Positions 1,784 to 64,000 of a stretch of 64,000 nucleotides of DNA are shown one piece after another. The position numbers and the translations under genes were made by a program. Each line of letters opens with the position of its first letter. Positions within the stretch are counted from its first letter, which is position 1. A model generated the notes under the pieces. The model made no database searches, was not told the DNA's origin, and was given only the letters and a program-made list of their open reading frames with translations. This DNA comes from Kiritimatiellia bacterium (GTDB taxonomy: Bacteria; Verrucomicrobiota; Kiritimatiellia; RFP12; UBA3636): contig JAFUOX010000026.1 of assembly GCA_017481725.1 (NCBI GenBank), forward strand, positions 1-64,000, written 5' to 3'.

Positions 1784-1800
1784 GAAAGGCGGTGAGTTTT

Positions 1801-11365: not shown

Positions 11366-11755
11366 TTGGATTGGCTGCTTAATTGCGGCTTATGAATAGT
11401 CTCCGTATAAAGTAATTTATATGATAAATAACACATTGAAATGCTGGAATACCCTAAAGCTCATATACCAAAGCGGAATGATGAAATATGCATAAACGTC
11501 ATGGTTGCGAAAGTAGAAAAAAGTTATGAGATGATGCATGGTTAAATCCTAAACATTATTATAATGGGTAATCAGCAGGGAAGCTTTGAACAGAAGAACC
11601 CTCAACGACTATTCCCGTTAAGGGAAGTACGCGACAAGCGTCGCGGAAGTGGTGTGCCCCACGCGTGTGGGTGAAGATATAGTCTGTGCTTTACCGAAAG
11701 GTAAAGGGTACTATTTGGTACCAGACAAGAGTAGCGCCTTGTCTAAACTTAACAG
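11366..11755 (+). ncRNA. Group I intron in tail tube gene (no ORF)
   Basis: This is a 390-base self-splicing intron. P1 pairs exon GAGAU with intron GUCUC (near 11399-11403), with the required terminal U-G pair at the 5' splice site. The core has the TGGAATACCCTAAAG-like P3/P4 segment, GGGTAATCAGCAGGGAAGC, then CAACGACTAT near 11605 pairing with ATATAGTCTG near 11678 (P7). P9 hairpins follow: CTTTACC/GGTAAAG, GGTAC/GTACC and AGACAAG/CTTGTCT. The intron ends at G11755. Splicing restores the tube reading frame and a conserved C-terminus. The core resembles T4 td-type (IA) introns and the fibre-gene intron at 26683. No endonuclease is encoded inside. Confidence 0.9.
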
Positions 11756-11951: not shown

Positions 11952-13037
11952 ATGGAATATGGGAATCAGTTTTCTGTAACAAAATCATTTTATGATTGGT
12001 GTATTGAAAACAATAGAATGGATTTAAATGATAGATTTGATGAAGAAAAGAATGGATGTTCAACCAAAGACGTTGGATATAAGAGTAATTTAAAATGGTG
12101 GTTTAAATGTCCGCGTAGTATACACGACAGTGATTTATACGTTATGCATTTTGTAACTAAAACTTCTGATAAAGTTCTTGATTGTAGGAAATGCAACAGC
12201 GTTGCTCAAGTTGTTATTGACAAATTTGGTGAAGAATATTTATGGCGTCATTGGCATAAAAAGAATACATTGAGTCCATGGGATATTCCAGCCGGGAGTT
12301 CTAGAACGAAAGTGTTTGTTCAATGCGATGAGAAAAATTATCATGTATATGGTCAGGTTGCTTCGTCTTTCACAAAAGGAATTGGATGTCCATATTGTAT
12401 TAATAGAAAGGTGCATCCGAATGATAGCTTAGCTGTAATTTATCCAGAGATTATTAAGCGATGGTCAGATAAGAATGATAAGACTCCGTATGAATATTCT
12501 CCTCATTCTGAAAACAAAGTGTGGTTAAGATGTCCGCAAGGAAATCATGATGATTATTTACAGAAGATTTCAAATGCTGTTATATATGAGCTTAGGTGCC
12601 CAGGTTGTTCGTTGGAAGAAACTAGCGAACGTATGCGTGGTGATGGATGCCACTTCTGGAAAGGTGGTATTAACGGCGAGAATGACACTTTAAGACATCG
12701 CAGAGAATATAAAGACTGGCGTACTGCTGTATATGAACGAGATGATTACACTTGCCAATGTTGCGGGACTCGCGGAAATAAGCTTAATGCGCATCATATT
12801 AATTCGTTTGCTGATTATCCAGACATAAGATATGATGTTGATAATGGAATTACTATGTGTGTAAAATGCCACGATGCGACTGAAAGTGGTTCATTCCATA
12901 ATCTATATGGCACTCATAGTACTACTTCATCTCAATTAAGAGAATACATTCTTAATAAATTTCATAAAGACATTTATCAAACAAATCCTAATTTATTATA
13001 TAACACTAACAACACAAAATTAATGTGCGCCGTCTAA
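11952..13037 (+). CDS. HNH endonuclease with zinc-ribbon repeats (free-standing)
   Basis: This is a 361-residue putative homing endonuclease. Residues ~50-220 hold tandem zinc-ribbon units of the DUF4379 kind (W-F-K-C-P ... C-R-K-C; C-P-Y-C-I-N-R-K-V; C-P-G-C), probably DNA-binding. The HNH domain is C-terminal: Y-T-C-Q-C-C-G, then L-N-A-H-H-I-N-S, then N-G-I-T-M-C-V-K-C-H. It begins at the ATG at 11952 after ATGGAGGT. It is not inside the tube intron, whose 3' splice site is about 200 bases upstream; it has its own promoter, leader and terminator. Its last codons overlap copy 4 of the 18-base element. It probably spreads itself and perhaps the neighbouring intron. Confidence 0.85.
   Translation: MEYGNQFSVTKSFYDWCIENNRMDLNDRFDEEKNGCSTKDVGYKSNLKWWFKCPRSIHDSDLYVMHFVTKTSDKVLDCRKCNSVAQVVIDKFGEEYLWRHWHKKNTLSPWDIPAGSSRTKVFVQCDEKNYHVYGQVASSFTKGIGCPYCINRKVHPNDSLAVIYPEIIKRWSDKNDKTPYEYSPHSENKVWLRCPQGNHDDYLQKISNAVIYELRCPGCSLEETSERMRGDGCHFWKGGINGENDTLRHRREYKDWRTAVYERDDYTCQCCGTRGNKLNAHHINSFADYPDIRYDVDNGITMCVKCHDATESGSFHNLYGTHSTTSSQLREYILNKFHKDIYQTNPNLLYNTNNTKLMCAV
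13009..13026 (+). repeat. 18-base recurrent element, copy 4 (right flank of HNH gene)
   Basis: The sequence is ACAACACAAAATTAATGT, 17 of 18 bases identical to copy 3. It encodes the N-N-T-K-L-M-C end of the HNH protein, so the element and the gene are physically merged. Confidence 0.75.
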
Positions 13038-24689: not shown

Positions 24690-26682
24690 ATGGGGAAGCT
24701 TAGCATTAAGGAAGCCTTGGGCTATACTACTCAGCGTATTATGGAGTGGACTAGTGGCAAGCTAGAAGACAAAGTGAACAAAGACGGCAACAAAAAGCTA
24801 ACCGATGAGAATTATTCTTTCGCTGATAAAGAAAAGGTTAGTCAAATGGCTACTGGATTACAAGTTCTAGATGGTAAATTGTATCTTACAAATGATTCCG
24901 GAATAATTGAAGATACAGCAACAACTCTACCAGCAGGCAGCGGTTCTGGTGGTGGATCTAGTGCCACTATAACGTTGAATAATTTATTAGAATCTACAAT
25001 TCTTACAACTGCCGTTGGAGGAGAAGCGGTTTTAAGATTTAGCTTTGAATCTTCTGAAGATGATTCTGGCGGTACTGCGTATATTTACGTCGGTGGTAAT
25101 CTTAAGGGAACTTCGTCTATAATTTCCGGAGAAAATTCTATTGATGTTGGTCAATATATTGGAGAAGGAACAAATGAAGTTAAGCTTACATGCACGGATA
25201 TTTATAGTAACAGTAAGTCTCTTTCATATACTGTAAACGCTATTAGCTTACGCGTCACTTCGACATTTGATGATAGCCAAATATATTTTAGTGATATTAG
25301 TGTTCGATACATCCCATATGGTGCAATTGAAAAAACTATGCACTTTGTAGTAGATGATGTTGACACTACTGTTGTTGTTAGCGAAACCGGCAAACAACAG
25401 ACACAGCTATTAACAGGATTGTATCATGGGACGCATGTATTGAAAATTTATGCTACGGCCAATGTCAATGGCGTGGAAATTACTAGTAACGAATTGTTGT
25501 TTGATCTTATTTATATTGAGGAAGGCGTAACAACACCGATGATCGCCTCTGCATATAGTATTACTACTATTACGCAGGGTGAATTAGTCAATATCCCGTT
25601 TTTCGTGTATGACCCTTCTAATTTAGAAACTGAGATTACATTGGAAATAAAACAGGGAGACACTGTGTATTCGTCTGTTGATCGCGTAGTTGGTCGCACG
25701 AAGGAAACATGGTCTACTAGAGATGTACCGGTTGGAGATGTGTCATTTGTCATTACATATGGTGTTGTAAGTAAGATTCACACGATAAAGGTACTTGAAA
25801 ATAATATTAATGTTTCTCTAAAGGAAACTGACTTAGAGTTCCATCTTCGTGCTGCGGGTAGATCAAATAGCGATAATGATCGTGATATTTGGACTAGTGG
25901 TGATATTACTACGACATTTGAGTATATTAACTGGGAATCAACTGGTTGGGTAAGCGATGATAATGGCGACACGGCATTAAGATTGTCTGGTGATGCCAAG
26001 GCGACAATTAACTTTACTCCATTTAAAACGGACGCTAGACAGACTGGTAGAACCATTGAAATGGAATTTGCTATTCGAGATGTTAATAATCGAGAAGCTG
26101 TTGCTATTTCATGCCTTAGTGGCGGTATAGGTTTCGCTGTTACAGCGGATACGGCCAAGATGATGTCCGAGCAATCAGAGATTAGTTGTAAATATACTGA
26201 TGAGAAAAAGATTATGGTCTCATTTGTTATTGAACCCAGATCTGAGTATCGTTTGATGTCTGTGTATCTCAATGGTGTGTTGTCTAGCGTAAAGCAGTAC
26301 GTCGAAAATGACAACTTGCAGCAAACAGTTCCTGTGAATATTTCTGTAGGCTCACCTTATTGTTGTGTTGACTTATATTCAATTAGGTCTTATGACATTG
26401 CACTAACCAAGGAAGAGATACGTGATAATTACATTGCTAGTATTGCGGATATTGGTGAACAGCTAGCCGTTTTTGAAGATAATAATATTTACGATGACTT
26501 TGGTGCCTTAAGTTTTTCTAAATTACAACCTAAAATTCCTAGCTTGATTATTATTGGTGATTTGCCAACATTCAAGGGAGACAAAAAGAAAGTTACTATT
26601 GTTTATTATGACCCTCAGAATCCGTCTTTGTGCTTCGAGGCAGAAGCAACAATTGATGTACAGGGTACAAGTTCACAGTGGT
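24690..26682 (+). CDS. Giant fibre with LamG-like and CotH-like domains, exon 1
   Basis: This is the first 664 codons of a 1,980-residue virion protein split by a group I intron. The N-terminal 60 residues look like a particle-attachment segment (L-T-D-E-N-Y-S-F-A-D-K-E-K). Several Ig-like beta domains follow (residues ~90-370), then a concanavalin/LamG-like domain (about 385-590). The start of a CotH-like domain carries its signature V-Q-G-T-S-S-Q-W. Unspliced, the frame would run into the intron and stop at 26732. With exon 2 the sequence reads S-S-Q-W-Y-V-V-K-N-F-K-T, close to the Y-P-x-K-N-x-K that normally follows this motif. Confidence 0.78.
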
Positions 26683-27837
26683 CAATTTTGGCTACCGTAT
26701 TGAGAAATCAGTATGAAAAAATACTCGTCTAATTGCTGGGACACCCTAAAGACAATTAAACTACAACGTAAAGATGAAATATGCTTAGGCGTGAATGTTA
26801 TGAAAATAGAAAAAATTAATTGTATTAGAGCGAGGTTAAATCCCCTGCTCTTTTTTTAATGGGCAATCAGCAGCGAAGCCGCGAACAGCGGAACGTTCAA
26901 CGACTATTCCATTTGGAAGTACACAACAAGTTTTTGGTTGTGGAAATGGCGAGGGCTCGAAAGGGCCAAGATATAGTCTGTGCTTGGTGGAAAACATCAA
27001 GAAGAAGTAATTCTTAGCATGGGAGTAGCGTCCCAATTTATGTGTTTGATATTTCGAAAAAAAAGGAGGTGCGCGCATGGAATTTGAACATAAAAGTGGT
27101 ATATATATGTGTACTTGCAATATTAATGGCAGAAGTTATATCGGACAATCAAGCGATGTAAAATTGAGAAAATGTCAGCATTTGTCAGAGTTGCGAGGCA
27201 ATCATCATTTTAATCAACATTTGCAGAATGCGTATAACAAGTATAAGGAATATAATTTTTCATGGACTGTTCTTGAATATTGTGATGAAGATGATTTGGA
27301 TGATCGAGAAATATATTGGATAGCATATTATAATACATATAAAGATGGGTTCAATGCAAATGAAGGCGGCTCTTCTAATCGTAATTTTGAGAGAACGGAT
27401 GGGTTTAAGGAAAAGCTGTCTGTAATTTTAAAGGACGTATGGGCTACGGCAGACGATAGGCGGAAAGAATTGTCTGAAAGAATGTCTGGAGATAAGAACC
27501 CTATGTTTGGAAGGTACGGATCATTAAATCCTGCGTACGGGCAAGATCATTCTGGCGAGAAAAATGGCATGTATGGTAAGCATCATACAGAAGAAGCAAA
27601 CGAATTAAATAGACAAGCTCATTTAGGCGCGAATAATAAAATGTCAAAACCTGTTGTTTGTGTAGAAACAAATACTGTTTTTGCGTCACAAGGTGAAGCC
27701 GGAAGGATAATGAATTGTGATAGCAGCACTATAAATAAATGTTGTAAAGGTGTTAAGAAAACCGCAGGAGGATATCATTGGAGATACGCAATGCAAGAAG
27801 AAATTTTAAATCAAACACATATAGCTTAACATAACAG
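26683..27837 (+). ncRNA. Group I intron in CotH-type fibre gene
   Basis: This is a 1,155-base intron. P1 pairs exon GUGGU with intron GCUAC (near 26691-26695), with the terminal U-G at the splice site. Core segments GCTGGGACACCCTAAAG, GGGCAATCAGCAGCGAAGCC, CAACGACTAT and ATATAGTCTG (P7, near 26970) closely match the tail tube intron, so the two share ancestry. The last base is G27837. The GIY-YIG ORF sits downstream of P7 in the P9 region. Joining 26682 to 27838 keeps frame and restores a conserved motif. Confidence 0.88.
27077..27829 (+). CDS. GIY-YIG homing endonuclease (intron-encoded)
   Basis: This 250-residue enzyme lies within the fibre-gene intron. The GIY-YIG catalytic domain is N-terminal: S-G-I-Y-M-C-T, then R-S-Y-I-G-Q-S, a conserved R/K/H region, and E in D-R-E-I-Y-W-I-A-Y-Y. 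The middle has NUMOD3-type repeats (S-G-D-K-N-P-M-F-G; S-G-E-K-N-G-M-Y-G). The C-terminus carries a NUMOD1-type DNA-binding element (A-S-Q-G-E-A-G-R-I, then W-R-Y-A). It should cut intronless fibre alleles and drive intron homing. The start has GGAGGTGCGCGC before ATG. Confidence 0.9.
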   Translation: MEFEHKSGIYMCTCNINGRSYIGQSSDVKLRKCQHLSELRGNHHFNQHLQNAYNKYKEYNFSWTVLEYCDEDDLDDREIYWIAYYNTYKDGFNANEGGSSNRNFERTDGFKEKLSVILKDVWATADDRRKELSERMSGDKNPMFGRYGSLNPAYGQDHSGEKNGMYGKHHTEEANELNRQAHLGANNKMSKPVVCVETNTVFASQGEAGRIMNCDSSTINKCCKGVKKTAGGYHWRYAMQEEILNQTHIA

Positions 27838-40716: not shown

Positions 40717-41778
40717 ATGAATAAAAAATACAATCGTAAAATCGACGTAATCATCCCGGCTTATAATGTGCCGGACGAAATCCTCTTCCGTTGTCTTGCC
40801 AGCATCGCTTGCCAAGATATCGTGAAAGAACTTGAAGTAACCATCGTGGATGATGCTTCTACGAAACAGAACTACGCAGCCGTAGCGAAGAATTTTAATA
40901 GTATCATGAAAATCAATATTCTTCGCTACGAAACCAATGGCGGCCCAGGTGTGGCTCGTCAGTATGGCATTGACCATACCAATAATGGTTATATGACCTT
41001 TATTGATGCGGACGATACTTTTAATGGCGCTTTTGCCATGAAGGCCCTGCGTAACGGTATTGAAATGAATAATGGTCTCTTCCAGATGTGTGTAGGCGTA
41101 TTCGACGAGGTGCATGAAACTATGCTACCCGAAGGAACCGTAGGTCCAATCCTAATGGACCACCAGCAAGATATGGTCTGGATGTTTGGCAAGCTCTATC
41201 GCCGCAGTTTTATCGACAAATACAACATCCACTTCCACGAATCTTCCCGCGCCAATGAAGATAACGGTTTCAACACTATGGCTCGTCTATGCATGAATGA
41301 CCGCGAGCAGATCAATTTCATTCCGGCGCACGTTTACTACTGGCATGAGAACATCAATAGTATTACTCGCGCAAATGACTGCCAGTATAGCTACGGTAGC
41401 TCTGAACGCGATAGCTTCTACGGTTACGTCGAGAATATGATTTTTGCGGTAAAGGAAGCAAAGAAGCGCAACCCCTACAATGGCTTCATTACCATGTGGG
41501 CAGTAAGTTGTATGCTACATATTTATGAGTACTATATTGAATGTGTTGTCCGAGCACCTGAACATGCGCCCGGCAATTTTGAATGGTGTAAGCGTTATTA
41601 TCGTGAGGTATATCGCGAACTGGAAGATAACATTTCTGACGAAATCCTAGCGCAGCACTATAATGACACTATGAGAAATGCCTATATGGGGGATAAGATG
41701 AATGGTATCATCCCTTGCATGGGCATTTTTGAATTCCTAAATAAATTAAAAGCAGAAACTAAGGAGGTTGAAGAATAA
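40717..41778 (+). CDS. Family 2 glycosyltransferase
   Basis: This 353-residue GT-A fold enzyme has an N-terminal motif I-D-V-I-I-P-A-Y-N-V, V-D-D-A-S for nucleotide binding, G-G-P-G-V-A-R-Q, and the metal-binding D-x-D in T-F-I-D-A-D-D. A later acidic motif R-A-N-E-D-N-G-F fits a catalytic base. It transfers a sugar from a nucleotide sugar to an unknown acceptor. It lies in the fibre island, right after the solenoid adhesin and coupled (TAATG) to the next gene, so fibre glycosylation is a plausible role; modification of host surface sugars is an alternative. No membrane segment is seen. Confidence 0.8.
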   Translation: MNKKYNRKIDVIIPAYNVPDEILFRCLASIACQDIVKELEVTIVDDASTKQNYAAVAKNFNSIMKINILRYETNGGPGVARQYGIDHTNNGYMTFIDADDTFNGAFAMKALRNGIEMNNGLFQMCVGVFDEVHETMLPEGTVGPILMDHQQDMVWMFGKLYRRSFIDKYNIHFHESSRANEDNGFNTMARLCMNDREQINFIPAHVYYWHENINSITRANDCQYSYGSSERDSFYGYVENMIFAVKEAKKRNPYNGFITMWAVSCMLHIYEYYIECVVRAPEHAPGNFEWCKRYYREVYRELEDNISDEILAQHYNDTMRNAYMGDKMNGIIPCMGIFEFLNKLKAETKEVEE

Positions 41779-46974: not shown

Positions 46975-49900
46975 ATGGCGAAAGATATTAAGAAGAAATT
47001 TACGATTACTCTGGATATCGGCACTGGTGATGCAGAGAAACAATTGAAAAGCACTGCCGAAAATATCAAACAAACATTAAAATCACTTTCTGATGGCAGT
47101 AATAGTTTGCAGCATTTTAATGAGCTTTCTGATATGCTTGTTCAGATTGATGCTCAAATGGCTAATTTAAAGGCAACCTATGGCGATGGATTTGAGGGGT
47201 TGTTTAATAAAATTAGCGCGTCAGTTAAAAACGATTTCCAGAGTATTTTTGATTTTGCGCATAAGAAATTGGCAGAGTTTAATGCTGATATTCAGGCAGA
47301 TAAAACTCATTTGGATTCGTTAAATGCCATGATGACAGAATATAAGAAGGCAAGCAAAGTTGGCGAGCAGGCTTTTAATTTAGATAAAATAACAGGATTT
47401 AAAGGAACAAAAAAAGAAGTACAAGAACTTTATGCCGTATTTGATCAGCTTGCAGAAGCTAAAAAGAAATTTGAATCCTCCGGCGATTTTACCAGTGAAG
47501 CGTATATTAAAAATTACATTCAATTAATGAAAACCGCTGCAGGACTTATTAACGCTGATAAACTATCTGAAAATGAGGGTAAAGACTTTGGTATTGATGT
47601 TGATGCACTTTCTAATAAAGCAGAGAAAGCTAAAGGTATTCTAAAAGAAATGTTTGGAAGTGCATCTACTAATCCGGCTTCTCATCTTAACGTATGGATG
47701 CAGCTGGACGGTTCTATTAAGGCTTCCATGAGTTCATTGAATAGCTGGGCAGAAGCATTAGCAGAAGTAATGAGTGATAGTATTAAAGCTGCTCTTAACG
47801 GCGATAACTTAGTCACTCAAAATAAAAAGTCTGCAGAATCTTATAATCAGCTTACTGCTAAGGTTAATGAGTATCTTGGTGTACAAAAACAATTGCAAAC
47901 TCTTGAAAAGGGATCACAAGCACGTAAAGATGCGTTGAAGCGAGCCGGTGAAATTCAGGCTCATATTGTGTCTATGAAAGAGCTAGACAATGATCAAGAA
48001 GAGAACGTCTATGACATTTTTGAAGGAATGAACTCTGGCGCAGTAAGTTCTGCAGATGCTATTTCTAAACTTTGTGGAATTTTACAAATTGATATACCTG
48101 GCGGCTTTACAGACGCTGCACAATCTGCTTCTGCTGGATTTAATACCATAACAAAGGGCGCAGAAAATGCTAGCAAGTCAATACAAAAAGTAATGTATCA
48201 TCTTGGTAACTTATTAAATGGTAAGGGTTCTGCAAGAGATACGTTCGGAGATATGCCATATAATTTAACAGAGGCCGCACAGGGATCTGGCAAATTTGAG
48301 AAATATGGATATGGCGTGCTTGGAGGAGGATTGTTTGGTGTTAACGATCCTTCTACAATTAATCCAGATCAGGTTGTTGGCACGAAGTTTATACAGAGTA
48401 TTGATTTGAGTAAATACAATATGTATCTTGCTGATACTGAGGAACGAGCTGCGTCCCTAATGGATTTCCTGAGCAAGCTACAAAAGTATGCTTTGAAAGG
48501 TGCAGAACCAAATTATACAGGATTTGACGAACAATTACAGGGCATTAATGTTGATACCTTATATGATCAATTTAAGGTTGTTTTTGCTGAATCAGATTTG
48601 ACTAAAGAGAAGTTTAATGGCTTTATTTCAGAAATGATAAACTTGCTTAATAAGGCTGGTTTAAAGTTTGATGCGTCAACTAATGAACTTGACTTTACAT
48701 CTCTTGGTGATTTAGGAAAATCGGATAATATATCTACAAGATTCTTAAAAATGTTGGGTTATCAAGGAGTAAATGTTGGCGGCACATCATTTGACGGATT
48801 CGGCCAAGGCAGTGTTTTATTTGATTTTAACCAATCTGATATTGTAGGATACTTTAGTAAAGCAGAGCAAGCAATTGCAGACTTTCAAAATAGGTTAAAC
48901 AATGGCTCCTGGGATGGCAGCAACGAGCAGTTACAGCAAATAGCAAAAAATATAGATGCTATTGTTAATAGTGCAATAGCAAAAAAGGAAGGTTTAACTT
49001 CTAAAAGTCAAATTGCTGCTCTGGATCAAACAATAAATAAACTGTCAGATGTTAGGATAAATATTGCAAAGATATTATCTGGTAATTCTTCGCTTCAGCA
49101 AATAACAAATGACTCGGCTCAAGCAAGTATGACGGAACAAATTGATGCGGCAAAGACTAAAATGCAAGAATTCTTAAGCTTAGCTAAAACATATACTGGA
49201 ATGGAATATGTTTCTGAAAATGATGTGAATTCAGGTATTCAGAAACTGCAAGAAATGAGAACTGAGCTTGTTGCGTTGGCGGAGCAGGGTGAGTTAACAT
49301 CTAAAGATCTTCAGGCTATTAATGATGCTTTTGATATTGCTGAAGTGCATTTAACTTCTATGGATCATGAGTCACATCGTAGCGGTGGTATGTTTAGTTA
49401 TACTTATGAATATGAACTTGCTGCGGCTGAAAAAGAAAATGCTAGGTTGAGGGCTGCGCTAGACCATTCTGTTAGCAATGATGTATATGATGATTTGGAA
49501 GAACGTGCAGAGCAACTTAAGAAAGAAAATGGACTATTAGAAGAAAAACTTGAATTACTCACAGAGATTTCAAACCAATACGGCATGTCTATTACTCAAA
49601 AAGACAGAGATCGTTATGAAGCACTAGTTGATAAAGAAATGGATGTTGGTTTAACCGAGAAGGAAGAAGATCGTCAGTTTACGCTTGGTGAGAAAATTGA
49701 AGAAGCAGATTCTGCAATGGAAGAACTAGGCGAAACTTATGACAAAATTATTCTTAAGTTGGCAAACGGCAAAAAGGTAGAAATACTTCCTGATGATAAG
49801 GGTCTGCGTGCGCTTGATAAGATTGCAAATGAATATTATGAAGGCGAATATAACGGCCAAGAGATTCAGGATGTTATCTTTGTTCGTCAGAAAGAGCAAG

Positions 49901-52900
49901 AAGTAATTGCTCAGACCAATCAACAGTTAGAAGAGCAAGTACAAACACAGCAGCAAATTGAAGTCGAATCAAAAAAAGCAGCAGATGTAGTCAAACACTT
50001 TAATGAAGTTGTTGGTGAAATTACAGGCAATGGTATAGAGAGTTCAGATTCTGCAAATTATTATGATGGCAAGTTGGACGCAATATATGATCAAATTGAA
50101 GCTTTACATGAGCTTGGTGTTGTGTCAGACGAGGTCATGGAAGAAGTTGAATCTAATTATAAAGAGGCACATGAATATATTGACGACGCAAATAGAAGTC
50201 AAAATCTACTAAACGAACTTTCTTCGTTAAACAACAAGGCGACTTTGACTGAAGATGCGGCTGAGTTGGCGTCAATTGTTGAAGAACGAAAAAAATTAAT
50301 TGATTTTGCAGAAGAGCAAGGATATTTCGACAACGATGTGCTGGAGACTCAAAGGGCTATTACTGCAGAAATTGAAAAACAATTACAAATTAAGAAACAA
50401 ATCGCTCAAGTCGAGAAAGCATATGAGGATGTTTTCGATGTTCTACACAATATAGGAACTAAATGGAAAGATTTAGACACTGTAGATAGTGCCATTGGTT
50501 CTATGCCATTAAGTGATATAGACGCTTATATACAAGAATTAGAACGTTTGATCAAACTAATAAAGTCTGTTGATCCGAATTTCCAACATGGTGATAAAGA
50601 CGAGTATGACGGTGCGGTTAAAACGCTTGAAAAAATGCAGGCGTTATCCGCTCGCACTAAGCTAACAGATGAATTTAAGAATACAATAAATCAATTCGAA
50701 CAGCTCGGTAAATTCCAGTGGAGCGACGAATTAACTAACGGATATTTGAAAATATTAAATGATATTCGCAATGGTACATATAAAACTATTGGTCAGTGTG
50801 TAGCTAAGTTTAACGAGCTCTCTGCTGCCGCAGCAGAACCTCCGCTGATGGATACCACAACAGCGTTCAAAGAGTTAGTTAATTATATTTCTAAATCTAG
50901 TTCTTCGCCATCTTATTTCTTTGACACGATGGAAGGAAGCGCATTAAAGGCTAATGATGCATTAAAGCAAATCTTTAAGTCGTTAAATTTAATTGGCCAG
51001 GATGGTAAGGTTAATCTATCTTCTCTGAAATCTGGCTTTACTAATCTTGGTGGTTTCGTGTCAGACCAATATACGATGATTGCGAGAAAAGGTCATTATA
51101 TTGGTAAGATACAGAGCATCCAACCAAAGCTACAACAGGCGCAACAGGAAGGAGCACAAATTGGTGCGATCTTTGATATCATCGAAGATAAAGCAAAGGG
51201 CATAATCTATGAAATTCAAAATACTGTTCCTGGTAAGTCTGTTTTGGGTCACCATTCTGGTAAGACCAATATGGATGTACTTAATGCTTCTGCGGCGCAT
51301 ATTGATGGTCTGGTTAACACTTTACAGATTTTAGCTAAAAATGGCCTATTTGTTGACTGGGGCGGAGACAACGTTCTATATGATCCTCAAAAGGGATTCT
51401 CCATTATCGACATGGGCGATAAGGGCGATAAACATTTTACCGTTAGTGGTAAAAACACGATACAAGAAAATCTTGACAGAATGGTCTCGGAGATGCTTAA
51501 GTTTGCTTCAGTAGACATGAGAGACGTCATTAAGTCTACTTTTGCAGATAAATTATATGCTAGTGCCAACAAGATTGATTCTAGTGTTGTCAACCCATAT
51601 GCACCAAAGCAACAAAAGGCTGCGCAAGTTGCAAGTGCACAAGTTACTGCCGCAGTTAAGTCTGAATCTGATGCACATGATCAGAATACGGAATCTATCA
51701 ATGCAGAAAATGATGCTCTAAAGGCTCAGATTGAGTTGAAGAAGCAAGCCCAATCCATGAAATGGGAGGCATTCGCAACAGACGATTCGTTGTCTGCACT
51801 AAAACAATCTGCTGGTTTCCAAACACTCGGTCAGTTAGAAGCGTTCTGGAAGAAGTCGAATTATGAAAAGAATATTAACTTCCATGAAATAACCGAGGCA
51901 GAAGCAAAACAAATTTTCAAAGACAAGCTATCCAAAGGACTAGCATCTAGCTGGTATGGTAGTGCAGATTTTAGTGCCAAGAGCAAACTAGAAAATGAAA
52001 TTCTTGCAGATGATGAAATTCGTAATGCTGCGTTGAGTTATTTGTATCATCTATACAAGAAGATGCCAGTATCTCAACAAGACCCCGCTATTACAGATTT
52101 CCAGAAGTTCTTAAACACGGAATTTACCGTGTATCGCGGAGATAAGGCTCCATTGATTTACGACGATCAATCAAAACTGAGCTTTAGCTTTAAGAAGAGT
52201 ACGGCGGAAGGATTTAACTCTCAAGTTGGTACGGCAAAAATTAAGCCTAAGGATACGATTGGTAATGCTGGTTCTGGTTTCTATTCCGAAGTAGAAACGT
52301 TTATCGACAGCTATGAGACATCTTGGTATCAAAAGAATCGAGAGGCGTTCGAGGATTTCTACAATCAACAGACAAAGGAAATGCAAAAAGAAATCGATGC
52401 CGGTTTAGTAAACTTTGAGAAAAAGAGAGTTTCGGATATTATTGGCGACGATTTGTCCACATTAACGCATAAAGCTCTTAATTCGTCATATTGGAAGCAT
52501 AACGTGGCAGACGATCTGAACAAGGGCATTGTTCCCAGTCAGATCACTGTACCAACGGATGGTTCTGATTATGCTCAGTTTGCAGATGCATATAACGGGT
52601 TGTCTGACACAATGAAGAGATTCGTCATGTTCTTTGCGAGCATGGATGAGTTAAGCGCGTCTTTGCCAAAGCAGTTTTCTATTACAACCAATGATGCTTA
52701 CGGCTTTAAGTATGGCAAAGCAGCTGTTGGTGATGGTGCAAAGTTATTTAATGCAATTCTCAATGATCCAGAAGGTCGCAGTCAACATATTGCTAAGTTA
52801 ACTGGCGAACAAGCGTTTAATCTTATGGGTCAAACACCCACCGATATTAACGCTGAGGCAGACGCTCGTGAGCGAAATGCTAAGGCTATTAGGGCAGAAG

Positions 52901-55900
52901 CTCAAGCTACGCAAACCTTAAAGGCAGCACAAGATACATACGATCAGGTAATGTACGATCTATGGGATTCAGTTTTTGACTCAGACGGAAGAAAAAAATC
53001 TGACCTATCTAAGGTATGGTCTTTTTTACATGACGTACAGCACACAGATCAAAGTATAGTCGATCAGGGTCTATATACTCAAAAGTCTACCGGTGATTCT
53101 GTTCAGGCAACAGACCTGTTTCAACTTGTTGTTGACATTGAGCATAAATACAATGAAAACTTAGATAACATTAAAGATTATCTGAAACAGGTTTATGCTG
53201 GCATTGATTTTAGTAATGTCATTCCTCAGCAAGCATCATCAGGTACGCATGCAGATTTCCAGTCTACTAAGCTACAGGCATATGAAACTGCTAAGAATGC
53301 TTATAAATCTGGCAATCAGAAAAAGTACTTTAAGATTCTTGGTATGTTGAATCATCTTGATGATATTGACGTTGCTAGACCTGCAGATATTGCTAACGCT
53401 GAATATGAGTTTAATGACTCGGGCAGATATTATAACATTTCTCATTTAGTAGAGATGGTTAATCGTCTTGAGACTGTATACCATGAAAATTTTGATTATG
53501 TGTATGATTATCTAAAGCAAGTTTATGGTGAAGCGACAATAGATAATGCACTGGCAAATATTTCTGGTGATGGTGCTAGTAGACCTGCCGCGCCGAAGTA
53601 TACAACTTTGGACTATGAAAATGTTTATTCTGCGGCGCCAGTAGATATGCAAGCAGCAATTGATGATTTGGCCGTATTCCAGCAGCGTTATGAGCAATTG
53701 TATGCGTTAACCAATACTCAACCTATTGAATTTATGTTCCCAGGCAAACCGACTTTGAACGAAGTTAAAGAAGTTATTACTGTATTTGATGAGTTTAAGG
53801 CCAAACAGCGGGAAATTTTTCAATTACAATTAATAGATTATGAGGGCAACAAAGAGAAGATTCAAGAGCTACAAGCTGAAGCTATTGGCTTACAGAATAA
53901 ATTGCTTAACGCGTCTCTTGGCGATGATGCAGATATAGCAGAATATAAGCTAACTTATGGATTTACTGACGACCAAGACGCTGATAGATTTAAAAAGCTT
54001 GTCGACATGACTGAAAGTGTGCATACAGTTATGAATGACTTAACTCGTATTGGCGAGTACAAAACGAGTTTGATCCCGCAAGAAATGCAAGATATGCTGG
54101 ATTCTGATAGCGGTGACGCGATTGAAAGATTTATGGCACAGCATGCACAACAGGCAAAAGCAGCGCAGGCTGCAGCACAACAAGCTAATGCTAGCGCAGA
54201 TGCTACTGAACGTCAGCTACAAGCTAAGAAGGCAGTTACGGCGGAGGATCAAAAGCAGGCGGCTCTAACTGATAAACAAGATACACAAACTGCAATGGAT
54301 GTAGCTCAAACACAGGATGTTCAGGCCGAAACAACTGCATTGAATGAACTGCTGTTAAAGATTAATGCTGTCGAACAAGCTGTTAAAGCTAAGACTGCTG
54401 CATTTGAAGCAGAGGGTGTTGCAGTTGAGGAAACTGTTAATAAGGAGATCTCTGCTTTAACTCAACTTAAAACGCTATTAGATAATATTCAAAACGCATT
54501 GCAGGTTGTATTTGCGTCTAATAATTACAGCTTGGGCGATATTAATGCCACACAAGACAAGACGAGCAACAATACGCTACCGAATATTCTACAAGGCATT
54601 AAGTCTACACTGGAACAAATTTATGGAGTTTTAAGTAAATCTACTGGTGTTGAAGCTGATAATAAAAATTCAGCGAAGGTTAAGGAACCTGTTGTTGATA
54701 ATAATGTTGTAGACTCTGATTCATATAAATTATTGGCTAGTAAAATTCCAGAAGACGTTTCAACTGAGACAACTTTGTCTGCTATTAAGGGTTCTGTGGA
54801 CCAGCTTGCTAAAAAGTCAAGTGGAGACGAGAAGTCTGGAGAAAAGAATCTAGACCAACTTGTTGCATCTTTGCTGGTTGCAACTACTGAACTTAAGAGT
54901 GTTGCAAATGGTATTGTGCAGCAGCAAAAAGCGTCGAAGAGCGATACTAGCGTTGCCAATGCAAGAATTGCAGATAAAGATTCTTATGCACAAATTAGAG
55001 ACGTTGCGTTGAATTCTCTCGGAGACAAAGCGCTTGAAAGCGAAGTTACCGAAATGAAAGCACTTGCCAACGGTGTTGTCAAGGTTACTGGTTGGCTCAA
55101 GGTTGCAGAAGATGCCTGGGAAGGTTTCACGGTTCAAATAAACGAAGCTAATGAAGCTTCAAAACTTGCTTTCTCTACAAACTCTAAGGCCGCTAAACAG
55201 GCTGCGGCGCAAGCAAAGAAGCTTAAGGAATCTGGCGACGATGAAGATGATCTTAACATAAAGAAGTATAATCCAAAGGAAACCAAGGCTCTTGCGCAGG
55301 AGAAGATAGCAAAGTATACTGCCGAAGGAAAGGTTGCAACCGTTCAGTTTAAGGATAGTGGAAGATATACCATTTCTACATTAGAGAAAATTGGTGGTCT
55401 GACTAAGCAGGTGTTCCAGACATTTGACGAAAATGACCAAATGATTGAGCGTACAACTGCAACTATGTCTAATGCGACTTTGATGAAACTGCAGGAATTA
55501 CAACAAATTGCCAAGTTTGGATTTGATAATGGTTTTGTCAAAGAAGACAATGAAATTTACAAGAGCTTCAAACAAGCTTCTGATGCGCTTGAAATGATGA
55601 ATCAAGCTTATCGTCAAACAGATCAATTATCTAATGATCAAATTAACAATTGGAATTTGCAAATAGAAGCGGTTATAGCGCTCGGTAAGCAAGTTCAAAA
55701 GTTAGTTGCACAGACTAAGAATCCTGCGATCAACATGAAGGCCAATAAAAAAGCGTATGGTGCAACTCCTGTTGTTAATGCTCAGGCCAAGTTTAATACT
55801 TTGGAGTCTCGTGCAAAACCGTACGCTGATAGTGGTTGGTCTGATATATCGAGTGCTTACCAACAATATGCTACAGCGCTAAAGAATTTAATTAATCTGC

Positions 55901-56726
55901 AAAATCAATTCCAGAATGGCAAAGAACCAACGGATGCACAAAAGGCACAATTTGTTCAATTAAAAGATGCGTGTAGTGCGGCCCATAAGGAGCTCAAAAA
56001 ACTCGTTGACACGGCAGATAAGTTTAATGCCGCTACAGAGGGTAATACACGCAAGGATATTCTGGGTGATGTCAATGTTAATGATCGTAATAGTAGAGCT
56101 GAAGCACTAAAGTCTTATGTACAAGAAGTATATGGTGCACAAGCGGTAGTTGGTAAGTTTAATGGCGATATGACTGAATTGCAGTTTACCATTAAAAATA
56201 CCGATGGTACGATTACAAATATGACTGCGGCTTTCAACTCCGCAAAAACGCAAATTGGTGCTTTACATGGAGAGACTAAGAAAGCGACTACTATCTTTGA
56301 TGAGCTTGGATTAAAGTTCAAGGAACTCTGGAGATATGCTGCAGCTAGACTTGGCGTTGATGAACTTATTCAAGCAGTTCGTAAAGGTGTTGAGTATGTC
56401 AGAGAAATTGACAATGCTTTGACAGATTTAAAGAAAGTTACAAATGAAACAGATGCAACGTATGCTCAATTCTTGCAGACGATGTCTAAGACTGCTGGTA
56501 CTGTTGGTAGTACGGTTGCAGACTTGACAACGATGGCTGCAGAATGGGGACGTTTGGGCTATTCACTTCAAGAGGCCGGTATGCTCGCAGAGAGCACGGC
56601 AATTTTGCTGAACGTATCTGAGTTCGATGACGCGACAACAGCGTCCGAAGCGCTAATCTCAACGATGCAAGCGTTTGGATATGCTGCGGATGAGAGTCAA
56701 CATGTAGTTGACATTTTGAATGAGGT
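46975..56726 (+). CDS. Giant tape measure protein, exon 1, with ART-like and kinase-like domains
   Basis: This exon encodes the first 3,250 residues of a tail tape measure protein that continues beyond the window. Coiled, Gln/Ala/Lys-rich segments alternate with enzyme-like modules. Residues ~400-620 resemble an ART-like module (Y-G-Y-G-V-L-G-G-G-L-F-G-V; L-G-Y-Q-G-V-N-V-G-G-T-S; G-S-V-L-F-D-F). Residues ~1355-1510 carry kinase-type motifs, G-K-S-V-L-G, then D1461-W-G-G-D-N1466-V-L-Y-D and I-I-D1479-M-G. Residues ~1700-1790 show R-S-E ART motifs: V-Y-R1721-G, S1736-F-S-F, S-E1772-V-E1774. Two imperfect ~110-residue repeats lie near 1980-2190. The conserved tape measure core starts about residue 3110 and is interrupted at 56726. 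The naive stop at 56751 is inside the intron. Confidence 0.85.
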
Positions 56727-56819
56727 AAAAGTTACTTGCCTCCTTGTATAGTAATATACAGTGAAAAAGTTGGCTTCTATCGGGGAAACCCTGGAGACAG
56801 GCAATCCCGAGGATAAGAC

Positions 56820-56847
56820 TTGACAAATTTAATTTTTATGGTATAAT
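56820..56847 (+). promoter_or_regulatory. Sigma-70-like promoter sequence inside intron
   Basis: TTGACA and TATAAT are both exact consensus boxes with a 16-base spacer. The -35 box is also part of an intron helix, so this could be structural coincidence. If active it would transcribe the downstream exons and the second intron's endonuclease. Confidence 0.35.
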
Positions 56848-56861
56848 ATATATGCTAATTT

Positions 56862-56879
56862 ACAATACAAAATTAATGT
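56862..56879 (+). repeat. 18-base recurrent element, copy 6 (inside intron)
   Basis: The sequence is ACAATACAAAATTAATGT, identical over 18 bases to copy 3 at 11811. It sits in a peripheral loop and stem of the intron. Confidence 0.7.
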
Positions 56880-57057
56880 CAAGAATCCGTAACGAGTAAG
56901 TGTTATGTACAGTAATGTACGTTTCCACGCCAACCACCCTACTTTTAAGGGTGAAGATATACTCTGATCTGCAAATATAATCTAGAAATGAAATTGCAGA
57001 GATTGGCAGAAATGACCAATCCTTTTGTATTTTGTAATACAAATGTAACAAATTTTG

Positions 57058-57186
57058 AGGTAACAATTACGCAGTATCTTCAGACGGAATTGCGACAGCA
57101 TTACAAGATTCCGCTAGCGCACTTATGGAGGCCGGGAACTCGTTGGAACAGGCCACTGCGTTAGTTGCAGCAGCAAATAAGGTGGT
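57058..57186 (+). CDS. Tape measure protein, exon 2
   Basis: This 129-base exon lies between two introns and encodes G-N-N-Y-A-V-S-S-D-G-I-A-T-A-L-Q and A-T-A-L-V-A-A-A-N-K-V. This is part of the conserved tape measure core. Frame is kept on both sides: a two-base codon remainder is completed by A57058, and again by A58506. It is invisible as a stand-alone ORF. Confidence 0.85.
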
Positions 57187-58505
57187 AAATTTGTGCCACG
57201 TCATTATAGTAATATAGTGACTAGTAGATAACTATATAAGTCAAAAGGTGTGGCTCACCAGAGACTTAGGAAAGATTAATAAAATAATTATGCATATATA
57301 AAATAATACATGGTGATAAAATGAAATTAGAGAAGATTTGTTTGTATTGTGGCAAACAATATTTTATTCCACAAAATCAATTTGAGCGAAGTAAATTTTG
57401 TTCCGATGAATGTTTTCGCAAAAATAAAAATACACAGCTTGATTATTGCTGTGATTATTGTGGGAAGAAAATAAAGGTCCAAAAGGGTAAATATGAAAAG
57501 GCGTTAAATGAGAACAGACATTTATTTTGTAGTAAAGCATGCGCTAATAATGCACAAAAGCCGGTATGGAATGACATTGTTACTTTATTTGATCAGCGAG
57601 GTTATATATTATTGGCTAATGAGTATATTAATGCTAAAAGTAAATTGGAATATATTTGCCCAGAACATCAAGAGTATGGTCCTCAATATATTACATATAA
57701 CAATTTAAAACAAGGCTTTGGGTGTAAATACTGTGGTATAGAAAGAACGACAAATAGCAGAAGGCTGCCGTTTGATAAGGTTAAAGAAATTTTTGCAAAG
57801 CATGATATGATTTTGTTGGATCAAGAGTATAAGAACTCTAATACTCCAATGAAATATATTTGCAAACATCATGTGGAGTTTGGTGTGCAATATATGGCCT
57901 TGTCAAATGCATGGAAACAGCATTGTCCTCATTGTAATACAATTAAAGGCGAAGATAAAATTTCACAGTATTTACTTGATCATAATATACAATTCGTTTC
58001 TCATAAAACATATGACGACCTTCGAGGTATTGGCGGAGGCAAATTATCATATGATTTTTATTTGCCGGACTTTAATTCGTTAATAGAATACCAAGGAGAG
58101 CAGCACGAACGTCCAGTTGATGTTTTTGGCGGTGTCAAGCAGTTTCAAGTTCAGCAAGAGCATGATTTAAGAAAAAGGGAATATGCCAAAGAACATAATA
58201 TTGAATTGCTTGAAATTTGGTATTATGATTTTCAAAATTTGGAGAAAATATTAGAGAATAAATTTTTATTAGTTGCATAATTATTTTATTTTTATCCTCA
58301 GAGACTGCAGGGTATATATGGTAACATATGTACTGAAGTTATCTATCCTACTCTTCTATTATATAGAGACAAGAGGATATAATATACAGTCCGCACTCAC
58401 GCGATAAGCCAAAGTATATGAAACGTGAGAGGTAGCCAGAAATGACTATCCGCCATTATATTATATAATGGTCAGTAGGTGGTTGCACCGAAAGTAACAG
58501 AAGTG
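57187..58505 (+). ncRNA. Group I intron 2 in tape measure gene
   Basis: This is a 1,319-base intron. P1 pairs exon GUGGU with intron GCCAC (near 57195-57199), with a terminal U-G. P7 is formed by GACTG (near 58302) and CAGTC (near 58397). The endonuclease ORF is inserted 5' of P7, probably in the P6 loop. The intron ends at G58505. Spliced exons read A-A-N-K-V-V-Q-D-P-S-S-V-G-S-A-L-R-T-I-S, the expected tape measure sequence. The core differs from the other three introns here, so it was acquired separately. Confidence 0.87.
57321..58280 (+). CDS. EDxHD/Vsr-like homing endonuclease with zinc fingers (intron-encoded)
   Basis: This is a 319-residue protein. The N-terminal ~80 residues have two zinc-finger units (C-L-Y-C-G-K ... 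C-S-D-E-C; C-D-Y-C-G-K-K ... C-S-K-A-C). The middle has two treble-clef-like C-x-x-H repeats (Y-I-C-P-E-H-Q; Y-I-C-K-H-H). The C-terminal nuclease matches the Vsr-like PD-(D/E)XK group that includes I-Bth0305I: L-S-Y-D-F-Y-L-P-D, then I-E-Y-Q-G-E-Q-H, then Q-E-H-D-L-R-K. It probably drives homing of its intron into the tape measure gene. It starts at the ATG at 57321 after GGTGAT. Confidence 0.85.
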   Translation: MKLEKICLYCGKQYFIPQNQFERSKFCSDECFRKNKNTQLDYCCDYCGKKIKVQKGKYEKALNENRHLFCSKACANNAQKPVWNDIVTLFDQRGYILLANEYINAKSKLEYICPEHQEYGPQYITYNNLKQGFGCKYCGIERTTNSRRLPFDKVKEIFAKHDMILLDQEYKNSNTPMKYICKHHVEFGVQYMALSNAWKQHCPHCNTIKGEDKISQYLLDHNIQFVSHKTYDDLRGIGGGKLSYDFYLPDFNSLIEYQGEQHERPVDVFGGVKQFQVQQEHDLRKREYAKEHNIELLEIWYYDFQNLEKILENKFLLVA

Positions 58506-61500
58506 ACAAGATCCTTCCTCCGTAGGCAGCGCCCTACGTACAATTTCACTACGTCTTCGTGGTACTTCAGTTGAAATTCTCGAAGAAATGGGCGAGGAAA
58601 CTGAGGGAGTAGTAGAAAGTACAAGTAAACTCCAGGAAAAACTAAAAGCATTAACTGGTGTCGATATCTTAACAGACACCGGTACATATAAAGACACATA
58701 CACGATACTAAGAGAAATCGGCGAAGTATGGGAAGATCTAGACCCCATGGATCAGGCCGCTGCGCTTGAACTTATGGCGGGTAAGAATCGTGCTAACACT
58801 CTTGCTGCAATTCTCAACAACATGGAAGACCTTAAGGGTGCATATCGGGATGCTCTAGGTGCTGAAGGTTCAGCTATGCGTGAAAATGCGGCTTACCTAG
58901 ACTCTATCCAGGGTCGTATTGACCTCTTTAACAACGCGCTGCAAACCATGTGGATGAACTTGCTAAATAGCGACGCCATCAAATGGTTTGTTGATTTGGG
59001 AACGTCGCTTATTAAGGCGGCCGATAAAGTAGGAATCTTAAATGTTGCAGTTGCCGGAGTCGTTACATATTTTACAGCAATTAAAAAGCACAACCCCGTA
59101 ACAATGTTTAAAGACCTTATTGCGGCTATGCAAAATTACAATCAAATAGTCAAACAAATACAATCAATTGGATCTATAATTGGTCCAGTGAAAAATATGT
59201 CATGGGATCAATTCAATGCTGGTCCAGTTAATGCATATGCGGCAGCAGTAAGTAATTTAACTGCAAAGCAACAGGCCGCAACTTTGGCTGCATCTGGGTT
59301 GAACTCGGAACAAATTGCTTCAGTGCTTGCGGCAAATGGTTTAAGCTCGGCTAATATTAAGCTTGCGATGTCGGAAGCAGGCGTTGCTCAAGCAAAAACA
59401 CAAACTGCCGCTGCGACAGGGCTGCAAATTGCGGCTGCGATGAAACAACAAGGTGTGGCACTGAGCCAAAAGGCTACAAACTTCTTGCTTGCACATAGCA
59501 CAGAAGAAGTGACAAAAAAAATGTTGGCTAAAGCCGTTGTTGCTGGCCAAATAACCCATCAAGAAGCAGTGCTTATTATGAAGTCGATGGGTGTTGTTGC
59601 GGCTAATACTGCACAAGCATTTTCGTGGAAAGCATTAGGCACAGCTATTAGCGCCGCATTTAAGTCCAATCCAATAGGCATGTTAATCAGTATTGCAAGT
59701 GCTGTTACCGCAATTGTCATTCCAGCTCTTGATGCTTTAATTGATTCAACAGAAGAAGTAAAACAAAAAGCAGAAGATGCGTTGACTGAATATTCGAATA
59801 GCCAATCCGAATTAAAGAAGACTAAATCTACTATGGATGCATTATCGGATGATTATGCTAAACTTGCATCTGGCGTTGATGAATTTGGTAATAATATAAG
59901 TTTATCTACTTCACAATATGAGCGCTATAATGAAATTGTTAACCAAATTGCTGATATGTTCCCACAGATGGTAAAGGGATATACCGCTGAAGGTAATGCT
60001 ATTATAAAGAATAAGGGTAACGTCGAAGCATTAACTGCAGCATATGAATCTTTACAGTCGGTTGCAAGCAACACACTGTTAGCTAGCGCCGATGATATTA
60101 TGCAAAATTATAAAAATACCTTTGAGAATAAATGGTATGAAGATGGTCCATCAACCGATTCAAATAAGATTAAAGCATCTAGAGAATTATCAAAGATGCT
60201 TAATAATCAAGATACTTACAAATTTGGAGCATATTTTAATAACAGCAAAAATGACGGCATAATTACCACAATGGTGAATCTGTTGGAGGATGCAGGTATC
60301 GAAGAAAAGTCGTTCACTGAAAGCAGTGAAGATTATGTTAAGCGTGCCCTGACAGAGTTCCCTGGAATTGTGCAAAGCATCATTAATACATGGGAATCTA
60401 CCGCAAATGCTGCCGTTTCAAATGTGAAACCACTAATAAGCGCCTATTTGGATACGAGTGTTGGTTATGCCGGATTAAATGATCAACAAAAGCAAGTCAT
60501 TGATTCTATGGTTGCGTCTTTGGACGAAGAATTCTTTAATGCATTTGATGGTGACGCTTCTAAATTATATACGGCTCTTGAATCAATGATCCAGAATTTA
60601 AAAACATCTGGGCTTGATGATGAATATAATTTAATGCTGAACGTTAAGACATCATTTAATAATGATGAACTTACCGTTAAAGAATATCAAGATGAGGTTA
60701 ACACTTTTAAAACAAAACTTGATAATCTTGTTTCCGATGGTATTTTGAGTGAAACTGATGCGAAGTACATTAAACTATCAATTGGTATTGACGATGATGG
60801 AGTTACTAAAGAATTAGATTCTATGGTAGCTTATGCTCAAAAAATTGTCGATGAAGAAAGTAAAGATAAGATACTAACATTAACTTATTCTGACTTACAA
60901 ATTATTAATAGCAGTGATTTTAAAGTTCCAGAAGGTACATTATTATCATGGACAGAATTGAAAGAAAAAATAGCTGCCATTAAGGCAATGGATCCTGATA
61001 TTAATGTTATTCAGACGTATACCGATTTATCGGGAAAAATGTCTAGCTATAATGACATCTTAGTTCAAACCAGTGAAATAACAGCCAATAATCTTGAGGT
61101 TACTCAAGAGTATAAAGATTCTTTGCTTGAACTTGGTATTAGTTCGCAAGATCTTGCGAAATGTTTCGATGATGAGAATAAGCTCGTTGTAACAAACGCA
61201 AAGCTTCTTAATACTCTTGTTAAAAATGCAAAGGGTAATATTCTCGCAAACACAAAACTTGCTAAATCTCAGGCTCGCCTCCAATACTATGAACTTTACA
61301 AGGAAATGAAAGATCTTACTGGTGGCATGAAAATTACAGACGGCGCAACTTTAAGTTACGTCGAATCTCTGTATGCCCAAATGTCCGCACTAGAAAAGAC
61401 CATCTCGCAGTATTCTCTGTTAGAAGCTAAGTTGCTTGGTGCTGCAAATGCTTATGAACAATTAGAGCAAGCACAAACACAAGATGAAGCAAACGATTAT

Positions 61501-64000
61501 GGCAGCAAAGCAGAGGAACTTGTAACCGTTCTGACTGACGCGTTTACCACCCGTGAATTGGGTACACAAGCCGCACAGGTGGCTATTGAAGGACTTATTC
61601 CAGAGGACGTACTTGACTCCGCTAAGGAAAAAGCCAAAACCGATTTAGATGGCGCAATGCAAGACATCTATGATTACTTTGTAAACGATAAGGGTGTAAT
61701 TAAAAAGCTATTTAAGTTTGAGTTTGACGACGATGGCAAAGTATCTGGCGTTGAAATGACACGTGAAAAGGTACAAAAGTTCACAGATGAATTGCTGAAG
61801 GCTGGCAATGTATTCCAGGGAGAATTTGATAAAGCTACTAAGCACTGGGATAATGTAACATTTGCTGATGGTATAGATTCTTTAGAAGATTTTGCCGACG
61901 CACTTGGAACTACCGAGGAAGTTGCGTTCGCATATTTGACCGAATTAGAGAAACTTGATATTAGTTGGCTTGCTGGCGATTATGCATCTCTACTTGATAT
62001 GTTGACAAGTAACGATATTGAACGCGCCATCATGCAAAATACAAAAGATTTGGCTGATTTGGAATATCGTGCTGCTAATGGCGATTTCAATTATAAGGGT
62101 GGATACGACGATTACGTTAAGCAACGCACAGAACTTGAAAACGAAGCCTCTGCTAATGAACAGGCTGCCAGAGAATCTATTGCAAAATGGACGTCTGCAA
62201 CAAAAGAGATTGAGAAGGCTCAGGCTAATGTAGATAAGCTATCTGGTGAATTAGCTAAGATGGATGGTACAGAGGCCGATTTTGACGTTAAGCAAGAAGC
62301 TTTAGAAGAAGCGGTACAGGAACTATATAAAGCACAAACGTTATTAAATGGCCTTGAAGAACCTACGGAAGTTATGCTAACTGTTGTTGGTGAAAATCTA
62401 CGTGCAGAAATTAAAAACATTGAAGATCAATTAGCCGCTGAAGGTTTTACTGTTGATGCAGTGGTACAACTTGATAAAGAGTCTGGTGAATATAAAGTTG
62501 TTCAGAACAGCGAATATACCGGAAAACTTGATGCTGAAACGCTAAAAACATTAGCCTCTTTAAAGACACAAGAGCTTGAGGTAACTAATCTTTTGAGCAC
62601 TGGAATTACAACAGCAGAAGGCCATTTAAGTAATATTGATTCGACGGTTCAAAGTATATTATCTGAAATTGGCAAGAGTAACTCTGGTGATGGCTCTGGC
62701 GAAGGACAAGATGAAGCCAAAGCAACAGTAAAGGCATATATTTCTGAGTACAAAGAAGTCGATGGCGGTGCATCTAGGGATAGTCTATCTATTGATAAAC
62801 TAGTTGGACATCTTTCATCATATATTGATGAGACGAATGGCGACCAAATTGTAAATTCCACTATTGCAAATTTGATAGGTACACTAACTGAATATAGAGA
62901 CGCTACTGGTAATAAAGAAATTACTAACTCAACACTCAATAATTTGCTCGGTATGGTTACATCTTATATGGATGCGACTGGCGGTGCAGAGATAAAGAAC
63001 TCTACATTAAAGGCACTGACTGGTGTTGTAATAGCATATGAAGATGCTACTGGTGGGGCAGAAATTACAAATGCTACATTTAAAAATCTTACCGGTATTA
63101 TAACATCATATGCCGATCAGACTAACGGAGCTGAGATAACAAATTCTGCTATTAAAGCATTGGTTGGAACGGTTATTGCTTATCAAGATGCCAATGGTGG
63201 TGCTGTAATTGATAGCAAGACGCTAAATGCATTGGTTGGTGTTATTAAAACATATAAAGATATGACCGGCGGAGAGATTGATGGATCTACCATTAAAGAA
63301 TTAGTTGGCATTATTACGTCATATAAAGATATGACTGGCGGTGCAGAAATCACTGGTTCTACTTTGAAAAACCTGGTTGGTATTCTTGTATCGTATAAAG
63401 AAACAAAGGGCGGTGCGCCAATTGAAAACTCTACGTTACAAGCTCTTGCTGGTGTTGTTGTAAAGTATGAAGAATCTTCAGAGGGCGTAAATTACGATGA
63501 CTTAGACTCCATTAAAGCACTTGAAGCCGAAGTATCCGAATATGATGAAGCGTTAAATTGCGACAAGAGTAAGCTGTTGCAAAATTTCGTTGCAAAAATA
63601 ACCGCATATGATGATAGTGAAGCTACGATGCCGTCGGCTGCCGGAACAGATTCAGAGCCTAAAGAAATTACCAAAGAGTACGAAGTTGTGGCCACAACTA
63701 CAACCAAGGCGTCTGAGAAAGCTGCATCTGTGATAAGCGATTCCGCACAAAAATATGTTGCAGCCTTACAACAACTGAATGCATTTATGAATGCTGGCTT
63801 TACAGCAAGCGATTATTTAACTTCAGGTGAAGCGGCGAAGTTCGGTATTGAGGTTGACGAGGATTCGTTTATAAGTGCGATAGAGGCATATCAATATCTT
63901 GAAGAGCAACTTCAGAAACGTGAAATGCCTACTGTTCAAATAGCTAATTTTGCAACAGAACAAATCGATCAGCAAATACAGACATTGCAAACGGCTTTAA
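58506..64000 (+). CDS. Tape measure protein, exon 3 (runs off the window)
   Basis: The frame is open from 58506 to the last base with no stop, giving residues 3294 to beyond 5,125. It begins with the most conserved tape measure motif (L-R-T-I-S-L-R-L-R-G-T-S-V-E-I-L). Then come A-A-A-L-E-L-M-A-G-K-N-R-A-N and S-I-Q-G-R-I-D-L-F-N-N-A. A hydrophobic segment near residues 3678-3706 (N-P-I-G-M-L-I-S-I-A-S-A-V) is a likely membrane-spanning stretch of the kind used during DNA ejection. Long helical regions follow, and about nine 24-residue repeats near residues 4700-4950. Because the gene is incomplete here, additional domains may lie downstream. Confidence 0.85.
62733..63480 (+). repeat. About nine 72-base coding repeats in tape measure exon 3
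   Basis: The encoded 24-residue unit reads like S-Y-K-D-M-T-G-G-A-E-I-T-G-S-T-L-K-N-L-V-G. It recurs about nine times with moderate divergence and ends at V-V-V-K-Y-E-E-S-S. Each unit probably forms a helix and a loop. Changes in copy number would alter protein length. Confidence 0.75.

Follow-up and report, generated by a model that had tools for sequence, protein, structure and literature searches.

In the phage lineage to which the 64,000-nucleotide stretch of DNA analyzed here (the window) belongs, the core of the tape measure protein (TMP) is preceded by an extension of 1,000-3,100 amino acids that contains a hypervariable cassette, and in two related TMPs this cassette region holds an ADP-ribosyltransferase (ART) domain of the polyvalent type (ART-PolyVal, PF18760). 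TMP-borne enzyme cassettes look real. The initial annotation had proposed an ART with an R-S-E motif order at residues 1700-1790 of the window TMP; the general idea of an ART inside a TMP is supported, at the level of sequence, by the curated family match in relatives of the phage, while the particular R-S-E enzyme was neither confirmed nor refuted.

The open frame at 46975-56751 (+), which encodes 3258 amino acids, is the first exon of the TMP gene and runs on into an intron. Exon 1 itself (residues 1-3251; 46975..56727, +) stops where uninterrupted relatives read on NEV-GNN, and its C-terminal end matched phrog_4211 'tail length tape measure protein' (residues 3035-3251, E 1e-28) and PhageMin_Tail (residues 3172-3250; 32.9 bits, marginally below the curated cut-off of 33.2). 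With a TMP core, a typical TMP C terminus and tail genes downstream, the gene product is a tape measure protein, as had been annotated. A group I intron follows at 56728..57058 (+; the RF00028 match at 56717-56974 stays under the gathering score, with 23.5 bits and E 0.0028), then a middle exon of 43 amino acids (GNNYAVSS...NKVV; 57059..57187, +), placed by its reading frame and its similarity to an uninterrupted relative. A second insertion carries an HNH homing endonuclease (57321..58280, +; phrog_559 HNH endonuclease, E 3e-51), after which exon 3 (QDPSSVGSALRT..., in frame; 58507..64000, +, start approximate) continues to contig position 67380. The gene is longer than the initial annotation had seen, and the spliced TMP, placed against the uninterrupted relative, would comprise about 6,250 amino acids. 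Two further group I introns were found at 11381-11706 and 26672-27001 (+; RF00028, 75.2 and 62.1 bits), the former followed by an HNH endonuclease gene (11952-13037); because of these introns and the insertions in the TMP gene, we call the phage intron-rich. Upstream of the TMP, one of the genes encodes a GtrB-like glycosyltransferase (40717-41778, +; phrog_22739, E 2e-10).

Using the portal protein (window 1792-3330) as a query, we retrieved 24 related contigs from IMG/VR, most of them about 80% identical, and the TMP core as a query brought in 80 loci. The window TMP aligns with that of locus L051 over residues 1-385 (an N-terminal module, 46975..48129, +; phmmer E 3e-15 and 1e-12, in two pieces) and over residues 2519-3251 (the conserved pre-core and TMP core, 54529..56727, +; also homologous to L042, and supported by a core alignment), whereas residues 386-2519 do not align. 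Pieces of this intervening region recur in other TMPs, in other combinations. The long TMPs of the lineage have their core at residue 1000-3100, as compared with roughly 100-660 for other TMPs that share it, and conservation within the protein is lowest in the cassette. A helical module at residues 842-1005 (49498..49989, +) shows 47-60% identity to L060, L062 and L052 and is common to four cassettes that otherwise differ; since modules reappear in this manner, we regard the cassette as an exchangeable module array. When this module and the pre-core were used as queries for more cassettes, almost only loci already in the comparison were returned, and a search of genome contigs with the TMP core revealed one close relative (L132), which is too short to hold a cassette.

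The ART-PolyVal domain was found in the TMP frames of L060 (43.2 bits; residues about 1145-1380) and L052 (31.6 bits, only just above the cut-off of 31.2; residues about 1200-1400). In both, it is in frame with the TMP core and sits in the N-terminal cassette region, as the R-S-E stretch does in the window. These matches were obtained when the region was scanned alone, and PF18760 was absent from the results for whole TMP N-regions, so whole-protein scans can miss such domains. The commonest recognizable element of the extensions is a JAMM-like H-x-H..S..D stretch, which is present in eight TMPs (L042, L044, L045, L047, L048, L051, L052 and L060) and accompanies ART-PolyVal in L052 and L060. 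Prok-JAB matched two of the eight weakly (E 0.006 and 0.016), and a profile of all eight stretches retrieved a peptidase and Rpn11-like chains (E 0.12-1.5). No JAMM-like stretch was seen in the window's own TMP. PF18760 also matched in 35 of the 346 genomes of the assembly's class (L154-L183), often in open frames of 1,000-4,900 amino acids and sometimes in several copies.

In the window TMP, no enzyme domain was recognized by any curated profile, and the candidates are at the motif level only. Residues 405-650 (48187..48924, +), for which homologues exist in the L062 (E 7e-14) and L044 (E 3e-9) TMPs, contain an H..F..D arrangement, and their H/R..F/Y..D pattern resembles, by motif only, the one described for polyvalent ARTs. 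AlphaFold modeling of this stretch from a three-row alignment gave a pLDDT of 53, with only a helical part confident, and a Foldseek search with the model returned nothing significant; profile-profile comparison with a home-made ART-PolyVal profile reached a probability of at most 12% and exceeded shuffles in two of three orderings, a result that is not usable. Residues 1371-1560 (51085..51654, +) contain D-W-G-G-D-N and I-I-D-M-G, a D-x4-N..D pattern that was read as kinase-like by eye. Their homologue in the L063 TMP (E 1e-8) is devoid of the first, catalytic-loop aspartate, which the window keeps. The cassette also includes two similar helical stretches, 'YNENLDNIKDYLKQVYAG' and 'YHENFDYVYDYLKQVYGE' (53000-54200; TMP residues about 2010-2420), which had no family match and are possibly an internal duplication.

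The R-S-E stretch spans residues 1598-1790 (51766..52344, +). Translation of the 46975-56751 frame verified that V-Y-R1721-G, L-S1736-F-S-F and S-E1772-V-E1774 are present as annotated, with the codons of R1721 at 52135, S1736 at 52180, E1772 at 52288 and E1774 at 52294-52296 (together 52135..52296, +). The order R, S-x-S, E-x-E is, at the motif level only, that of the R-S-E ARTs (Alt/VIP2, PF03496); the central residue of S1736-F-S1738 is F, where T is usual. The ordered motif occurs once in the 3258-residue frame. It appeared in 1.3% (loose pattern) and 0.04% (strict pattern) of composition shuffles of the protein and in 0.4% and 0% of first-order Markov copies, respectively, figures that flatter the motif, as both patterns were drawn up after it had been seen. 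Because the patterns are post hoc and many motifs could have been noticed, we take the order to be unusual for one named motif, and suggestive and no more.

We consider it fairly probable that the motifs at 1721-1774 are coincidental and lie in a structural linker or in an unrelated small cassette domain with no ART fold, a reading favored by the lack of any profile match or homologue of the stretch. The search against ART families that had been proposed as a check returned no ART family, PF03496 included, when the stretch was queried in isolation at E-values up to 10. No curated family was matched by the whole window protein or by isolated residues 1598-1790, PF03496 matched nothing in the window's own genome, PF18760 gave no match in the window, and a profile of ART-PolyVal built from 30 sequences scored neither the R-S-E stretch nor residues 405-650 above shuffles. 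In view of these profile results, we assign the stretch to neither PF03496 nor PF18760, although it may function as an ART all the same. A sequence search of the PDB gave nothing significant, and homologues were found neither in viral contigs, phages and plasmids nor in 95 relatives, the order, the class and 388 genomes of the phylum. The best of the weak matches, to Rhodococcus phage Finch gp16, a helicase-like protein (L003) and the L144 TMP, were rejected on inspection, as they look like chance. The equation of the window E-x-E with the non-catalytic 'GAF[WY]xxIE' segment of the L060 and L052 ART-PolyVal domains was likewise rejected, as the two are similar by eye and their alignment scored at shuffle level (p 0.84 and 0.31).

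Coincidence is also favored by the spacing between R1721 and S1736, which is only 15 residues, as compared with about 21 or more in characterized R-S-E enzymes. Furthermore, ARTs continue with strands after E-x-E, whereas the window protein is apparently helical there, as judged from a single-sequence AlphaFold model of low confidence. This model of residues 1598-1790 (pLDDT 44.6) is evidence neither way on an ART fold, and Foldseek found nothing significant with it. About 1% of shuffles, moreover, contain the loose motif, and attention could have fallen on any of many motifs. Against coincidence stand the stricter pattern, found in only 0.04% of shuffles, and the real ART domain that related TMPs hold in their cassettes. 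An ART at 1598-1790 that has decayed, lost its catalysis and been retained as a scaffold or decoy would account for motifs that are there with atypical spacing and flanking strands, and the L063 kinase-like homologue indicates that catalytic residues do get lost in cassettes; yet all the named catalytic residues are present in the window, which is not what decay usually leaves, and we hold this explanation to be very improbable. As to an ART fold in the R-S-E stretch, the unusual motif order and the neighboring cassette domains speak for it, and we rate it as doubtful. As one more part of the cassette, and an orphan, the stretch could be a divergent ART. Its motif is real, and its ART identity may well be a coincidence; both its nature as an ART and its role as an intact delivered enzyme are putative.

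For the cassette as a whole, we lean slightly toward a polyvalent effector load carried in the TMP. The hypervariable region between the conserved N-terminal module and the conserved pre-core consists of compact enzyme-like domains that helical linkers separate; across the family, a recognized ART-PolyVal domain is among them, as are kinase-like stretches, domains of JAB/JAMM-like type and ART-like stretches with H..[YF]..D. In this proposal, the cassette would ride in the tail with the TMP, would enter the cell when the TMP leaves the tail before the DNA, as judged from TMP ejection in general, and would modify host or defense proteins before phage gene expression; its cytoplasmic delivery, enzymatic activity and targets are all predicted. 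The proposal that the TMP has turned into a polyvalent effector carrier, whose exchangeable kinase-like and JAMM-like domains and ARTs, both of the polyvalent H-Y-D type and of a new R-S-E type, are injected before the DNA and act on host or defense proteins at first contact, is tentative, and we would not expect it to hold in full. Against an effector load, the window is without a curated enzyme domain and its fold predictions reached pLDDT values of only 44.6 and 53; in addition, because the tail lumen is narrow, folded cassette domains could not be housed in it without unfolding.

Alternatively, the enzyme-like domains might serve the particle itself, in TMP processing, assembly or envelope opening, and not host takeover. 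JAB-like domains being the most common recognizable cassette element would agree with such a role, as would the self-processing by a peptidase domain proposed for phage P1 DdrB (Iyer et al., PMC5512222) and the peptidoglycan hydrolase motifs known in TMPs (TM4, from work cited in PMC13277306). Assembly parts should be conserved, though, whereas no part of the TMP is less conserved than the cassette; ART-PolyVal, for its part, has no known assembly role. We judge a particle function to be rather unlikely, and an effector load remains our preferred reading of the cassette.

Polyvalent proteins, which occur in phages and conjugative elements (Iyer et al. 2017, PMC5512222), unite ART, kinase and peptidase domains, whose predicted role is to modify or process proteins, and their injection is likewise predicted. 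Like the TMPs of this lineage, they hold many enzyme-like domains in one long polypeptide, and they include the family PF18760 that two related TMPs hold. Here it is a TMP that carries the domains, whereas the term 'tape measure' does not occur in that paper, which also states that genuine polyvalent proteins are without R-S-E ARTs. T4 Alt and the Alt/VIP2 ARTs have the R, S, E motif order of the window stretch, and Alt, a virion-borne ART that acts at once upon infection, is a model for the cassette as an effector load (PMC5512222, PMC9503650). The Alt/VIP2 enzymes, however, are head proteins or MuF fusions (PMC5512222, PMC9503650), whereas the window stretch lies in a TMP, differs in spacing and gave no profile match. 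Phage ARTs are often virion-associated, mostly in myoviruses, and an ART is encoded by only 3% of siphoviruses and podoviruses (PMC9503650). At infection the TMP leaves the tail lumen by ejection, and effectors related to TMPs occur in contractile systems (PMC13277306). Two of these effectors, Sle1 and Tme, are TMP-like and ejected, as proposed for the cassette; they belong to bacterial contractile systems and have other domains, and no ART is mentioned for them (PMC13277306). Our literature searches, limited to open-access papers, found no description of an enzyme cassette in a TMP.

The TMP core is homologous to those of SPbeta (YomI), Lactococcus phage 949 and Thomasclavelia phage TR-TP1 (about 27-34% identity), and the portal is related to that of the Lactococcus 949 group. 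The lineage is one of large tailed phages, whose portal and TMP core are akin to those of the Lactococcus 949 group, with a weaker relationship to SPbeta. In TR-TP1, an isolated relative, a gene for an HNH endonuclease lies between two parts of the TMP, as in the window, and the TMP core is situated about 143 residues from the start, which leaves no cassette or extension. Tails that bring enzymes into the cell may be a real theme in the phage lineage. If the cassette is delivered, the TMP would be a further route by which protein-modifying enzymes of mobile elements reach a cell ahead of the elements' genes, besides head packaging and conjugation. Delivery could also help to explain TMP genes far longer than expected, and would open up a pool of early anti-host or anti-defense enzymes, accessible by searching the region upstream of the TMP core. 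Beyond the window, on the same contig and downstream of the tail genes, a protein (L005:15993-17933, -) resembles, by eye, the large serine recombinases and would be in keeping with a temperate phage.
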